A program made the position numbers and the translations under genes. Source: Phycisphaerae bacterium (lineage in GTDB: Bacteria; Planctomycetota; Phycisphaerae; UBA1845). From it: 64,000 bases of DNA. Where the stretch lies: NCBI GenBank assembly GCA_029260115.1, contig JAJDDW010000061.1, forward strand, positions 1 to 64,000, written 5' to 3'. Shown piece by piece: positions 24,864 through 31,601 of this stretch (positions are counted from its first letter, which is position 1; every line of letters begins with the position of its first letter). The notes beneath the pieces are model-generated. The model did not search any database, was not told where the DNA came from, and worked only from the letters and a program-made list of their open reading frames with translations.

Positions 24864-26000
24864 TCATTGATTTGACGGCTTCAGTAGCGCCTCGACCAAT
24901 TCCACAAGCTTATCACTTTTCGGGTCACGCATACGAATAATGCCTTTTTGATCCAGCAAATACCACGTAGGCAATTGGCGCACGTTGTACATCAAGCCAA
25001 CCGGATTCTCGCCATCTATAATATCCCAGGTGTGAATACCGGGCGCTTTCATACGCTTCACTAGCCTCTTGGCCATGTCACCACTCTCGTCCAGCGAAAC
25101 CGAAAGGATCACGAATGGCTTATCGCTTAACGCCTGCTGCACTTTTTCCAGATGAGGAAACTCAGCCACACAGTTCGGACACCACGTAGCCCAGAAATCA
25201 ACCAGCACCACTTTCCCGTGTAGCGACGATAGTGACAGAGGCTTGCCATCGAAGGTCTTGGTAGCAAAATCCGGCGCGGGCATCCCTACTTGCAAATGTT
25301 CCACTTCAAAGAGTAGCCCCTTCGCCTGCGCCGCGAGCTGGTCGGCTAGGTCCGGGTCAACCCCCCCTTTACCATCAGTCAGTTTTTTCTGCGCGGATGC
25401 TGTTTTCAAAACTTCACGAAGCCAGGGCTTCGCTTGGCTAGCTTGCTCCGTACCAACTAGGGATAAGCTTGCATAAAAATTAGCGGAAAATTTTGTTTGC
25501 TCGCGCGTGGTTCGCTTAGCTAAATCCCGTAGCGCCTTCGCCCAATCTTGAGGGGAGCCTGCAAATCCATGAAAATTTTCGAACTGTTCGAGTACTAAAT
25601 CCAATGCGGGGTCGTTGGTATAATGCTCGACAAGATACGTGAATCGATGAAAAATCATTTGGGGCGAGAGGTCCACAGACCACAACAACGTATTGGCAGC
25701 CATATAGCCGCCATCCGGCTTATCGGCATACTGCTTAGCTAGCGCATCCATTTTTTTCAGAATCACAGGCCGTCCGTCATGCGGCAGCTTCGCACCTTTT
25801 TTTAACTGCCCATCTCGCCCCAACGACTCTTGAAACGCGTCATAAAAATCGGCGACGGCCTCTTCCATATCATATTCTAACTGCACAAACTCCGCTTTAG
25901 GGCTAGGGCCGGCGAAAACCGACCGCGGCTCGACGAAGCTTGCTGCAATAATCAAGCTCAAACCAATAAGTTTCACATAATTCGTAAGCCAAGATTGCAT
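24864..26000 (-). CDS. Exported TlpA/ResA-like thioredoxin with N-terminal extension
   Basis: The 378-residue protein begins with a signal peptide ending near SVFAG. An uncharacterised helical domain spans about residues 35-235. The thioredoxin fold follows at about 240-375 with the WATWCPNC active site, Cys274 and Cys277, and a cis-Pro in RQLPTWYLLD. TlpA/ResA-type proteins reduce disulfides in the periplasm. It lies next to a deiodinase-like selenoprotein of the same fold superfamily, 130 bases downstream of that gene's end and on the same strand, so the two may share a transcript and redox role. Confidence 0.88.
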   Translation of the reverse strand: MQSWLTNYVKLIGLSLIIAASFVEPRSVFAGPSPKAEFVQLEYDMEEAVADFYDAFQESLGRDGQLKKGAKLPHDGRPVILKKMDALAKQYADKPDGGYMAANTLLWSVDLSPQMIFHRFTYLVEHYTNDPALDLVLEQFENFHGFAGSPQDWAKALRDLAKRTTREQTKFSANFYASLSLVGTEQASQAKPWLREVLKTASAQKKLTDGKGGVDPDLADQLAAQAKGLLFEVEHLQVGMPAPDFATKTFDGKPLSLSSLHGKVVLVDFWATWCPNCVAEFPHLEKVQQALSDKPFVILSVSLDESGDMAKRLVKRMKAPGIHTWDIIDGENPVGLMYNVRQLPTWYLLDQKGIIRMRDPKSDKLVELVEALLKPSNQ

Positions 26001-26130: not shown

Positions 26131-26793
26131 CTACCCCTTCGGCGCTATCACATTCGGAAAATTCTTTGCTAACCATTCAGAGGCTTGCTCAACCGAAGGC
26201 TTAAAACCCCACGGACCTCGATCGCCACTCACGACAATCTTCCCAGATTTATCCACTACAAAAAGTCGGTCAGGCCAACCCGAGTAATTCGCATCAACCG
26301 AATCTTTAATATCATCAATCACGCACGGAATATCAATCTTGAGCTTGGTCAAACACTTTTTCGCATTCCCCGATCGCTCATCCCAAGTCTTAGGCGTATT
26401 GATCGTCTCGCCAGGGACTTCCATAGGCCAATCGCTATCCGCCGCATGCGCTTCCTTAATATAAACCACCAAGAACTCAGCGTACTGGCCATACGCTTTG
26501 TACATCTCGTTTAAGGTGCCAACCTGGCGCCGAAAAGGAGGTCATGTATAGCTGCCGAAAATCAATACCACCGGTTTTTCACCCTTGAAGGTGGCCAATT
26601 CCGTTTCACGCTTCCCGTCGAGGGATTTGAGCTTGAAGTTCGGCGCATCATCGCCAACCTTGGGGGCTTTGTCCGGCCCACGCCTCCCTTTGCCACGCAT
26701 CTTACCCGCAGGCTGCGCCTCTACCGCAGCCACGCCCAACATCATCACCACGGCCAACGCCATGATTGCACAACATAATTGTCTACACTTCAT
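26131..26793 (-). CDS. Selenoprotein: iodothyronine deiodinase-like, TGA = Sec at residue 84
   Basis: Two frames that look separate are one gene read through an in-frame TGA at 26542-26544. The joined 220-residue protein has a signal peptide (VVMMLGVAAVEAQ), a thioredoxin-like domain with LIFGSYT-U-PPFRRQV, and VVYIKEAHAADSDWPM, which parallels the deiodinase motifs (GS.TUPPF and YIEEAH.SDGW). A SECIS-type hairpin follows the TGA, and selB and selA are the next genes. Bacterial members are exported thioredoxin-fold oxidoreductases; thyroid hormone is not their substrate. Reported as two truncated proteins it would be wrong: the first half stops exactly at the redox residue and the second has no start of its own. 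Confidence 0.9.
26515..26544 (-). promoter_or_regulatory. Bacterial SECIS element with Sec TGA
   Basis: On the minus strand the TGA (26544-26542) is followed after ten bases by GGCGCC-AGGTT-GGCACC (26531-26515). This forms a short stem with a GG-containing apical loop. The E. coli fdhF SECIS has GGUUGC-AGGUCU-GCACC eleven bases after its UGA, so geometry and loop agree closely. SelB recruits selenocysteyl-tRNA at such hairpins. Confidence 0.85.
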
Positions 26794-26891: not shown

Positions 26892-28841
26892 ATGATCGAT
26901 GATGCCATGCAAAGTAATGTAAAGAACACCACCCAACATTTCATATTAGGGACAGCCGGGCATATTGACCACGGCAAAACGTCGCTTGTCAAAGCCCTTA
27001 CAGGAATCGACGCGGACCGGCTGCCTGAGGAAAAACGCCGTGGAATGACCATTGAGCTAGGTTTCGCGGAACTCAGCATCGGCGATGTTCAGTTTGGCGT
27101 GGTAGATGTTCCCGGCCACGAGCGCTTCATCAAAACCATGGTCGCTGGGGCAACGGGGATCGATGTCGCACTATTGGTAGTCGCGGCTGACGACTCTGTC
27201 ATGCCCCAAACCCGCGAGCATGTGGAAATCCTACACCTCCTCGGCATAAAACAGTGCGTCATAGCCGTGACAAAAATCGATACCGTCGATCCAGACATGG
27301 TAGACATGGTCATCGACGAAATAAACGAATTGCTCGATGGATCACCAATCGCAGATTCGCCCATCTGCCCGGTGTCGTCGATCACTGGCGACGGTATCGA
27401 CGCCCTTCGACAAACCCTCGTACAAGTTGCGCGTCGATCTCATCAAGAAAATCATCCTAGCCCATTTCGCATGTGCATGGACCGCGTTTTTACAGTGCCA
27501 GGTCGCGGCACTGTCGTCACCGGATCGATCATACGTGGACAGGTGTCCGCTGGCGACGAGCTTGAAGTTTGGCCTGGTGGAAACACCTGTCGCGTGCGTA
27601 GCCTGCAAGCCCATGGCTCATCTTGCGAAGCGCTGGCACGTGGACGTCGGGCAGCTATCAATCTGAGCGGAATCGACAAAGACGCACTACAACGGGGTAG
27701 CGAATTAGCCACGCCGGGATATCTAGAGCCTATCCACGTAGCCGATGTGAAGCTGACCTATTTATCGTCCAATCCAAAATCATTAAAATCAACCCAGACC
27801 GTGCGTATGGGTATGGGCACGGCCGAGTTCCCGGTACGAGTCGTACTGTTTGAAGACAAACAACTTTCACCAGGCGAGGCCTGCTTTGCACAACTTCGCA
27901 GCGGACAACCTTTCGTCGCTGCCCATGGACAGCGGTTTATTCTGCGCGATGAATCCGCTATCCGCACGATCGGTGGCGGCATCATCTTGCGCATGTCAGC
28001 CCGACGACGACGCACATCCGTTGAAGACACCATCTCGGCACTAACCGCCCTGGAAACCGGCCAAGACGCCGACCGCATCGCGGAGGTATTACGCGAATAC
28101 CGCTTCACAAGACCGACGGACTTGCACGTGTGCGCTAGAACAGGTGTTGCGCTTTCACAAATCAATGATAGCTATGAACAACTACAAGCCGATGACCGCT
28201 TGTTGCCCATTCCTGGGACCAAAGTGCAGGCGACACCTGGCGCGATTGATGATCTGTGCAAACGATTATCGCGCTGGCTAACGCGATATCACCAGCGACA
28301 CGCAGACGAGCCAGGTCGAGCAACAGACGCGGTCATCGGATGGCTAGGACGGTTGAGTAGTCCGTCCTTGGCCAAGCCGTTGTACGATCTCTTCGTCAAA
28401 CACAAGGCAATAAAACCCTTTGGGCGATTTACCTGCCTGCCCGAGTTTGCCCCCTCGCTATCCAAAGCCGATGAGCAGCATCTCATGGACATGATTGACG
28501 AGATGCAACGAGGCGGTTTTCAGCCTCCGGCCCTGGATGCCCTCGCTATCGCCAAGAAGGTAGATCGGAAGCGGGTCGAGAAATTAGCAACGCTAGCCGT
28601 GGCTATGGGCAATCTCATGAAGGTCGAAGCCAAAATGTATCTTCACGCTGATAGCGAGCAAAAGTTGCGAGAGACGGTTAGCCAGTTGATTCATACCCAT
28701 GAATCGGTCACGATTGCCCAAGTGCGCGAGGCATTAGACTCTAGCCGGAAGTTTGTCGTACCCTTTATGGAGTATCTCGACCGCGTCGGATTCACCAAGA
28801 GACAAGGCGATGGCCGAATGCTAGTGGATTTGGGCGATTAA
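26892..28841 (+). CDS. selB: Selenocysteine-specific elongation factor SelB
   Basis: This 649-residue GTPase has the EF-Tu-like core: [14 protein letters not shown] (G1), [10 protein letters not shown] (G2), DVPGHERFI (G3) and VTKIDT (G4). Domains II and III follow, then C-terminal winged helices (about 380-649) that bind the SECIS hairpin. It delivers selenocysteyl-tRNA to the ribosome at UGA. It starts 98 bases from the divergent deiodinase-like selenoprotein gene, which it serves. ATG codons at 26892 and 26907 are both possible starts. selA follows in the same direction after a 181-base gap containing an inverted repeat. Confidence 0.95.
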
Positions 28842-28984: not shown

Positions 28985-29022
28985 TAAATGAAGGTAGTCA
29001 TGCGAATGTATTGGAAGCTCTA

Positions 29023-30483
29023 ATGAATGCTGCGACGAAAAAAATGCTGCGAGCGCTACCTTCCGTAGCCTCCCTTCTCGAACACGAAGAGGTAGTCGAT
29101 TGGTTGTCCGGCTCACCTCGGGCGTATGTCGTTTCCTCCCTACAAGCAGCCATCGACGATGCCCGTGAAGCGATTCTTGCGGGCGATGACGAAATTTCAA
29201 TCGACTCCGACGATCTCGTAGCCGAGGCCGAAGCCTACTTGCTTGAACGGTCCACACCGAATTTACGCGGAGTTATTAACGCCACCGGTATCGTCCTTCA
29301 TACAGGCCTAGGCCGAGCGCCGCTTTGCGAAGCTGCGGTCGAAGCACTAGCTGAGAGCATTGGAGGCTATTGCAATCTTGAATATGACCTGGAAACCGGG
29401 CAACGCGGCAAGCGTCAGGTCCATGTCGCTGAACACTTAGCCGAGATTACCGGCGCAGAAGCAGCCACCGTCGTAAACAACAACGCCGCAGCGACCCTTC
29501 TCATCCTTCAAACCCTCGCCCACGGAAAAGAGGTCGTTGTCTCACGTGGGCAACTGGTCGAAATCGGCGGAAGTTTTCGCCTACCAGACATTATACGAGC
29601 CGCCGGCGTTACGTTAAAGGAAGTAGGCACCACCAACCGAACCCGCGTCAGCGACTATCAAGAAGCCATCTGCAGTGACACCGCAGCCCTGGTACGCGTA
29701 CATACCAGCAATTTTCGTATCGAAGGCTTCTGCGAAAGTGCGAGCATCGAAGAAATGGTCGAGCTAGCTCATCGATTTGAGTTACCAGTGGTAGATGATT
29801 TGGGTAGCGGCGCACTTTTTGACCTGAAACCTTTAGGTTTGCCCGACGAGCCTCATGTGCAAGCATCGCTGGATGCCGGCGCGGACCTGGTATGTTTTTC
29901 GGGCGACAAACTTCTCGGCGGGCCTCAATGCGGCATAATCGTTGGCAGGCAAGATTTAATCGATCTAATCGAAGCCAATCCGCTCATGCGAACTTATCGC
30001 GTAGGCAAGCTGACGCTGCTCGCCTTGGAAGCTACCCTGCGATGTTATGCCGACCGTGACCAAGCCCCTGACTTAATCCCAGCTTTGACCATGCTCACCG
30101 CCACGACTGGCGCCTTAGCCCATCGGGCGGAAACACTGGCCGAGCTACTATCGCAGGCGTTCCCAGGCGAGCATTTTTTCGTAGGATCGGACGTAGCTTT
30201 CGCCGGCGGTGGGGCTTTGCCCGCGCGCGAGCTGACCACCGTCATCGTGCAATGGCGACCAGCCGGGGCACGGGCGAGCGAAATTGCAGCAGCGTTGCGG
30301 GAGGCGGATATCCCAGTAATCGCCAGAATCCGCGATGAGGCCATCTGCTTCGATCTCCGCACGATTCGCGATGACGACTTAGAAGGCCTAGTCGACGCCG
30401 TAGCCTCCGTCATCCTGGATGATGATGACGAAGACGAAGAAGAGGATGAGGATCCCAACGACGTGTCTCTGCCGGTCCTATAA
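29023..30483 (+). CDS. selA: L-seryl-tRNA(Sec) selenium transferase SelA
   Basis: I start at the ATG at 29023 (GGAAG seven bases upstream); a TTG at 29011 opens a slightly longer frame. The 486-residue PLP enzyme converts seryl-tRNA(Sec) to selenocysteyl-tRNA(Sec) using selenophosphate. The N-terminal helical domain, the INATGIVLHTGLGRAPL signature and the PLP-lysine motif SGDKLLGGPQ with Lys296 are present. Lys296 falls where E. coli SelA has Lys295. The C terminus carries an unusual run of Asp and Glu (about 15 residues). selD and selC are not in the window, so the Sec machinery is completed elsewhere. Confidence 0.95.
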   Translation: MNAATKKMLRALPSVASLLEHEEVVDWLSGSPRAYVVSSLQAAIDDAREAILAGDDEISIDSDDLVAEAEAYLLERSTPNLRGVINATGIVLHTGLGRAPLCEAAVEALAESIGGYCNLEYDLETGQRGKRQVHVAEHLAEITGAEAATVVNNNAAATLLILQTLAHGKEVVVSRGQLVEIGGSFRLPDIIRAAGVTLKEVGTTNRTRVSDYQEAICSDTAALVRVHTSNFRIEGFCESASIEEMVELAHRFELPVVDDLGSGALFDLKPLGLPDEPHVQASLDAGADLVCFSGDKLLGGPQCGIIVGRQDLIDLIEANPLMRTYRVGKLTLLALEATLRCYADRDQAPDLIPALTMLTATTGALAHRAETLAELLSQAFPGEHFFVGSDVAFAGGGALPARELTTVIVQWRPAGARASEIAAALREADIPVIARIRDEAICFDLRTIRDDDLEGLVDAVASVILDDDDEDEEEDEDPNDVSLPVL

Positions 30484-30636: not shown

Positions 30637-30825
30637 ATGCCAAGACCTAAAAAAGCCTTACGCCGGGTGAGAATGAGCGCCATCGCAGCTTGGAAAAAAG
30701 GCGAAAAAAAAGAAGCCTACGCCCTTTGGGAAAAAGCTGCCAAAGGCCGGAAAGAACATTTCAACAAGAAGCGTGCCAGCAAAGCTCCGTCCGCTAATAG
30801 CGAGCCTGTAGCCGCCGAAGCTTAG
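30637..30825 (+). CDS. Small basic protein of unknown function
   Basis: This 62-residue protein (MPRPKKALRRVRMSAIAAWK...) is strongly basic in its first 50 residues and ends in a short Ala/Glu tail. The helical pattern AWKKGEKKEAYALWEKAAKG looks like a single TPR-like or nucleic-acid-binding helix pair. It has its own strong promoter at 30549-30577, which supports it as a real gene. Ribosomal or nucleoid association is plausible from charge alone; I do not recognise a family. Confidence 0.7.
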   Translation: MPRPKKALRRVRMSAIAAWKKGEKKEAYALWEKAAKGRKEHFNKKRASKAPSANSEPVAAEA

Positions 30826-30977: not shown

Positions 30978-31601
30978 ATGTTGAAGCGTTCAATACAACT
31001 TTTCATATATGCGGTGTTTGTATGTTTTTCGGCTAACAGTGCGCGAGCTAATCTAGCTTTCGACTTGATGGGAGCGCCCACTCCATCCGGCAGTTGGTAT
31101 CAAGGGTTCCACCTCACAACACAAACTAACTTCAACAACCTTGGCTTGATACTCACACCGCTAGCTGGTGATGACGGCACGTCGGGATTCAAGCCGCCCG
31201 CTTGGGACTTTGCGGTCGCTCCGCTCGGCTCAGCTTCGACCACGTACAACGAATCACTTGGTCTAGGCAGTTGGTTAACGGTGGCATCAGGCGCGTCAAC
31301 AGACGACCTCTATTGGCGATCCCATTTTCTAGGAAATATGGCTACCCAAGATTTCGTGCTAACAGCTTTCACGTTCGACAATCACCTGACACCTGATTCC
31401 GTCCAAGTCGCAGCCGCACATTGGGATGGCTCGGTTTGGGATTTCTACACTCCGCCCGCAGTCACTTGGGATGAATTCGTTACCAACGGCGGTACCGATA
31501 TTGGTTCTGTGGTCGTCCCAGTACCGCCCGCTGCGTTATTAGGCCTAATCGGCTTATTGATCTGCGTTCCGCTGGCTCGTAAATTTTCCGTCCATCACTG
31601 A
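30978..31601 (+). CDS. Exported protein with PEP-CTERM-like C-terminal anchor
   Basis: The 207-residue protein has a signal peptide (YAVFVCFSANSARA) and a C-terminal tail VPVPPAALLGLIGLLICVPL followed by ARK. This matches the layout of PEP-CTERM/exosortase signals (VP-x-P, membrane helix, basic end), although the usual VPEP reads VPVP. The middle is a Trp/Gly-rich beta domain with no recognised family. If an exosortase is present in the genome the protein would be sorted to the cell surface. It has its own promoter and stands alone. Confidence 0.78.
   Translation: MLKRSIQLFIYAVFVCFSANSARANLAFDLMGAPTPSGSWYQGFHLTTQTNFNNLGLILTPLAGDDGTSGFKPPAWDFAVAPLGSASTTYNESLGLGSWLTVASGASTDDLYWRSHFLGNMATQDFVLTAFTFDNHLTPDSVQVAAAHWDGSVWDFYTPPAVTWDEFVTNGGTDIGSVVVPVPPAALLGLIGLLICVPLARKFSVHH

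Follow-up and report, generated by a model that had tools for sequence, protein, structure and literature searches.

Overall organization of the locus

The window, a stretch of 64,000 nucleotides from a contig of a Phycisphaerae bacterium, contains a 220-codon gene on the minus strand (26131-26793). Its sole in-frame TGA is at codon 84 (26542-26544), in the motif GSYT-U-PPF. In the open reading frame list the gene appears as two short entries, 26542..26793 (−) and 26131..26505 (−), of 83 and 124 amino acids. The two share a frame and are separated only by the TGA, in the redox site, in agreement with the preliminary description, which had also anticipated that an automatic caller would report two short frames, as ORF calling does here. 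When the TGA is read as selenocysteine (Sec, U), the product has 220 residues, with U84 within FGSYT-U-PPF. Residues 1 to approximately 26 resemble a cleavable signal peptide, as judged by eye, and the protein is most likely exported. For the earlier label of an exported enzyme, this N-terminal segment is what was found, and export itself is a prediction from it.

The gene is divergent from selB, encoding the Sec-specific elongation factor (26892-28841, +), with 98 nt between the two starts. This is followed by selA, encoding L-seryl-tRNA(Sec) selenium transferase (29011-30483, +). The matches to TIGR00475 (selB) and TIGR00474 (selA) are both above cut-off, and the reported adjacency of these genes therefore stands. 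On the other side, 130 nt downstream of the selenoprotein gene and on the same strand, is a gene for a TlpA/ResA-type thioredoxin (24864..26000, −), with a WCPNC motif and an N-terminal domain of ~235 residues, which is the likely reductant. A scan for terminators, with counts near chance, gave no terminator-like site in the interval separating the two genes.

Conservation of the in-frame TGA codon

Two homologues from the same genus, L044 (84% identical) and L045 (77%), have TGA at the identical codon. Compared with L044, dN/dS is ~0.08 upstream and 0.05 downstream of the TGA (0.079/1.49 downstream). Compared with L045, dN is 0.144 and dS 0.83 downstream (ratio ~0.17), and dN is 0.055 upstream, with dS saturated. 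These values indicate that purifying selection acts on both sides of the TGA in the same-genus homologues.

The family was found in 118 of 392 genomes of the phylum. A tally was made by hand from printed lists for 116 of these, and related genomes among them are not independent. A TGA copy is present in 96 of the 116, and the other 20 have uninterrupted matches only; TGA copies thus occur in about a quarter of the sampled phylum genomes. Homologues with another stop at this site, named beforehand as grounds for refutation, were looked for, and neither TAA nor TAG occurs among the matches listed in this survey. SelA is present in 89 of the 96 genomes with a TGA copy and in 11 of the 20 with uninterrupted matches only (P=1.3e-4). 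The association of SelA with TGA copies against the rest of the whole sample gives a Fisher P of 5e-14.

In an alignment of 113 bacterial copies (L110 was left out, as it did not fit the motif search), the redox column contains TGA in 101 and TGC in 12. The Cys homologues, proposed earlier as a check, thus fall in the same column as the Sec copies. Taken together, these comparisons indicate that the frame across the TGA is not a chance occurrence.

A SECIS hairpin downstream of the TGA

The first 45 nt that follow the TGA can be aligned across the genes without gaps, and a seven-pair hairpin is located at nucleotides 13-29 of this region, with a loop that is mostly GGU, GGC, GUC or GUU. Across 86 genes, 76.4% of the cells are paired, compared to 57.9 ± 1.4 in shuffles, and 106 cells are changed on both sides, compared to 44.5; every slid register gives lower values. 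The shuffles in this covariation analysis ignore relatedness, whereas the slid registers keep it. As the protein is conserved in the hairpin region, synonymous codons were also shuffled within each gene. The TGA genes have a mean of 5.16 of 7 pairs (3.73 in the synonymous shuffles), and 56% of them have at least six (9% in the shuffles). In comparison, the 12 Cys genes have 2.83 pairs, against 2.71 when shuffled, and none (0%) has six or more. In the TGA genes, the 45-nt stretch following the TGA has a low folding energy (mean z of −0.94), which neither the Cys genes nor regions further downstream show. In about 44% of the TGA genes, five pairs or fewer form at the nt 13-29 register, and these genes may use a shifted hairpin.

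In the window, the apical hairpin GGCGCCA-GGU-UGGCACC is at 26515..26531 (−), 17 nt after the UGA, and an outer stem reaches to about 26506-26540. This copy has six of the seven pairs, one C-A mismatch and the loop GGU, and it is within the published limits for bacterial SECIS elements (bSECIS) (PMC13188914). The folding energy after this TGA, taken alone, is not unusual (z=0.15), the support for the hairpin being comparative, and a scan of the window at the Rfam gathering cut-offs gave no match. Because the hairpin covaries across the 86 genes and is missing from the Cys homologues, we identify it from these comparisons as a bacterial SECIS. It is located inside the coding region, unlike the SECIS of the vertebrate deiodinases Dio1-3.

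A true stop codon, in a pseudogene or through a sequencing error that splits an ordinary Cys enzyme, would also give the two short ORFs obtained by automatic calling. This explanation is contradicted by the two congeners, which have TGA at the same codon and show purifying selection past it, by the TGA copies in most of the tallied genomes and the lack of TAA or TAG among the matches listed, and by the covarying hairpin. It was rejected on these grounds, and we give it almost no weight. The comparisons thus indicate that the apparent two pieces are one intact selenium-containing protein.

Selenocysteine machinery of the genome

The preliminary description would have been undermined by a genome lacking selC or selD, and both genes are present, so that the genome has all of selA, selB, selC and selD. 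The selC gene is on contig C24 (61.3 bits, cut-off 47), is also called as tRNA-SeC by ARAGORN, and has the anticodon UCA. The selD gene is on contig C31 (L011, G000:C31:33832-34755) and has one in-frame TGA, at SCAG-U-AGKL; SelD is therefore a selenoprotein candidate in its own right. The Sec machinery, the codon conservation, the phylum survey and the TGA/TGC column together support the assignment of UGA84 as Sec, with recoding by SelA, SelB, SelC and SelD through the bSECIS.

Decoding of the UGA as Trp or Cys, through a changed code or generic read-through, would equally leave the frame open across this codon. Set against this are the tRNA-Sec(UCA), SelA, SelB and Sec-type SelD in the genome, the specificity of the hairpin for TGA genes, and the use of TGC at this position by homologues. 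The chance that it applies here is negligible.

The genome has a second deiodinase-like selenoprotein gene (G000:C63:33591-34091; L010, L154), with TGA at the same site and a fully paired hairpin (TTCGCCA-GGT-TGGCGAA). Its product has a C-terminal TPR-like extension, and the gene is located upstream of one for a large exported protein of ~820 residues, an order shared by the two genomes of the same genus (L151, L152). Three more AhpC-TSA matches (G000 C12:47175, C110:3648 and C114:4601) have one in-frame TGA each, and the genome is therefore likely to encode further redox selenoproteins.

Family assignment and structural homologs

With the TGA read as U, residues 44-211 match PF00837 (T4_deiodinase) in a single alignment across the TGA (E=4.3e-30; 105.2 bits, gathering score 27), so that both halves fit the same family, as had been proposed. 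T4_deiodinase is by far the best Pfam family; AhpC-TSA and Redoxin are also above cut-off, with weaker matches. The NCBIfam model NF038285 ('deiodinase family protein') matches residues 42-204 with an E value of 1.3e-54. However, the score is 186 against a cut-off of 250, and the protein covers only the last part (174-339) of this 347-residue model.

The nearest PDB entries by sequence are mouse Dio3 (4tr3, 1.4e-18) and Dio2 (9h48, 7.5e-18). An AlphaFold2 model has a mean pLDDT of 85.4, and its best Foldseek matches are again Dio2 and Dio3, followed by ResA-type thioredoxins and peroxiredoxins, including AhpE. The protein shares the thioredoxin fold with TlpA/ResA thioredoxins. In contrast to these, it has no CxxC motif, a single Sec is followed by P-P-F, and there is a deiodinase-type insertion after E114 and H116.

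The reading as a deiodinase-like selenoprotein is backed by selC and selD, the covarying bSECIS, the Cys homologues and the codon conservation. On this comparative evidence, the 26131-26793 region almost certainly encodes a selenoprotein of the deiodinase-like (PF00837) family.

In other planctomycetes, N-terminal EF-hands are fused to deiodinase-like domains, both with Sec (L015, L031, L040) and with Cys (L028, L036), suggesting calcium-linked forms.

Comparison of the active site with animal deiodinases

The 101 Sec copies were mapped on Dio3 numbering, with the roles of the Dio3 residues taken from published work (PMC11592359, PMC9141512). The protein is similar to Dio1-3 in the thioredoxin fold, the T-U-P-P-F site and the residues of the proposed proton relay. 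The positions of Dio3 Ser167, Thr169, Tyr197, Glu200 and His202 are invariant in all 101 copies, including the window protein, and an acid (Asp or Glu) is found at the position of Glu259 in 98. The equivalents of this network in the window protein are S81, T83, Y111, E114, H116 and the acid at 175.

There are differences from Dio1-3 outside the relay. At the position of the proximal Cys168, nearly all the Sec copies have Tyr or Phe (Tyr82 in the window protein), and only two of 101 have Cys. Dio1 and Dio3 use the proximal Cys in re-reduction, and Dio2 is also without it. As this position is Tyr or Phe in the bacterial proteins, their re-reduction must differ from that of Dio1 and Dio3. The position of His219 is Pro in 67 copies (Pro134 in the window protein) and His in 28, that of Phe258 is Pro in 100, and that of Arg275 is Arg in 45 (45%). 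Moreover, Dio1-3 are membrane-anchored, whereas this protein appears by eye to be secreted. With the relay invariant and the gate, the clamp and the proximal Cys not, the chemical core has been kept, and the parts linked to iodothyronine recognition and glutathione-type re-reduction mostly have not.

At least one other Cys residue is present in the core of all the Sec copies but one. C147 is the commonest, in 62 of the 101, and C157 is found in 31. In a profile comparison with the thiol peroxidase Tpx of E. coli, the alignment stops before C147.

Among the 12 Cys copies, S81 is replaced by Asn in nine and the acid at 175 by Ser or Ala in ten (copies concerned: L028, L032, L036, L079, L082, L097, L101, L112, L123). 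In at least one clade, loss of Sec thus appears to be accompanied by substitutions at two positions of the active site.

Genomic neighborhood and the TlpA pairing

The arrangement of the selenoprotein gene, the tlpA gene and divergent selB-selA is kept in L044, L045 and L058, and the TlpA pairing is found only in these and the window's own genome, four related genomes of one family. In two more members of this family (L143, L153), the selenoprotein gene is divergent to selB with no recognized TlpA, in a view limited by contig ends. At 12 other loci, the neighbors show no shared partner. The TlpA linkage is thus clade-specific, as judged from gene order. The gene next to tlpA had been described as half of a defined redox pair; the adjacency of a TlpA-type gene holds, kept in four genomes, and the pairing of the proteins is our inference from it.

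The selA/selB genes are also found within about 6 kb of the selenoprotein gene in the Verrucomicrobia L048, L050 and L051, and also in L066 and L107. As the orientations differ, this linkage to Sec machinery genes seems to have more than one origin.

Downstream of selA, two other genes are conserved. One encodes a small basic protein of 62 residues (30637-30825, +), kept in L044 and L058, and the other an exported protein whose tail looks PEP-CTERM-like by eye (30978-31601, +), kept in L044.

Proposed mechanism

We propose that the gene product is a secreted, thioredoxin-fold selenoenzyme of the PF00837 family, in which UGA84 is recoded to Sec by SelA, SelB, SelC and SelD through the hairpin. 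After export, the selenolate of Sec84 would attack a small oxidized or halogenated substrate, with a proton supplied by the deiodinase-type network described above. The selenenyl intermediate would then react with a distal resolving Cys, either C147 or C157, to give a selenenyl-sulfide, and TlpA, fed by a DsbD/CcdA-type membrane protein, would re-reduce the enzyme. A DsbD_TM protein is encoded in the genome and could feed TlpA.

Most likely, the protein is exported and serves as a reductase that uses Sec for deiodinase-type chemistry on a non-thyroid substrate, with re-reduction by TlpA. The combination of selenoprotein, deiodinase-like family and reductase-type function is held with high confidence. 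The complete mechanism with TlpA as the reductant has about an even chance of being correct, and the choice of C147 as the resolving Cys is tentative. The substrate is expected to be a molecule other than thyroid hormone.

The enzyme could instead be an exported Sec-dependent peroxidase or thiol-disulfide reductase, its likeness to deiodinases reflecting ancestry, with no carbon-halogen chemistry. The AhpC-TSA and Redoxin matches above cut-off, the proximity of the fold to ResA, AhpE and other peroxiredoxins, the TlpA neighbor, and the lack of conservation at the iodothyronine gate and clamp positions would fit such an activity, but the invariance of the relay in 101 Sec copies and the clear preference for T4_deiodinase would not. 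We consider it a serious candidate, somewhat short of an even chance. Less probable is a natural reductive dehalogenase of iodinated or brominated phenolics, a bacterial counterpart of the animal deiodinases. This would account for the invariant Ser, Thr, Tyr, Glu and His of the proposed relay, the acid at the Glu259 position, the Sec nucleophile, and Dio2 and Dio3 as the closest structures. However, the positions of His219, Phe258 and Arg275 have mostly changed, and no halogen-metabolism gene was recognized beside the selenoprotein gene among the neighbors, which were surveyed in part. The most specific form of this proposal, an exported Sec-dependent dehalogenase of halogenated phenolics, fed by TlpA/CcdA and standing at the bacterial origin of the chemistry of thyroid deiodinases, is improbable. 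A substrate class outside both dehalogenation and peroxide or disulfide reduction is unlikely, to about the same degree as the general dehalogenase.

Relation to known bacterial deiodinase-like selenoproteins

The family is already known, and the protein described here is a further member. In 2005, Zhang et al. described deiodinase-like selenoproteins with a bacterial SECIS in Sargasso Sea data, with four Sec and six Cys sequences (PMC1088965), and the 2008 report on the GOS data has 22 Sec and 21 Cys sequences and gives no motif (PMC2398784). Reviews of 2022 and 2026 name the family without a function (PMC9312934, PMC13188914), and no activity is reported for any bacterial member in the literature cited on the family. 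Both reviews give the motif as UxxC, a feature that the original description did not require. UxxC is found in none of the 113 aligned copies, all of which have [U/C]-[PG]-P-[FY] (U-P-P-F in the window copy). The present protein has in common with the known members the PF00837 domain, a redox site that holds either Sec or Cys, and a bacterial SECIS; it differs in the divergent orientation of its gene to selBA and in the pairing with TlpA.

The present analysis adds the abundance of the family in a phylum sample, the common covarying bSECIS, a comparison of active-site residues and the linkage to selA/selB. Ordinary annotation would split genes of this type. According to the residue survey, the bacterial proteins retain the proposed proton relay of the deiodinase active site but have neither the proximal Cys nor the Phe gate, and the second His and the Arg clamp are for the most part missing as well. 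For a bacterial family that has been without an assigned function since 2005 in the literature cited, this contig brings together the enzyme, a candidate reductant and the selA/selB genes as a complete, testable unit.
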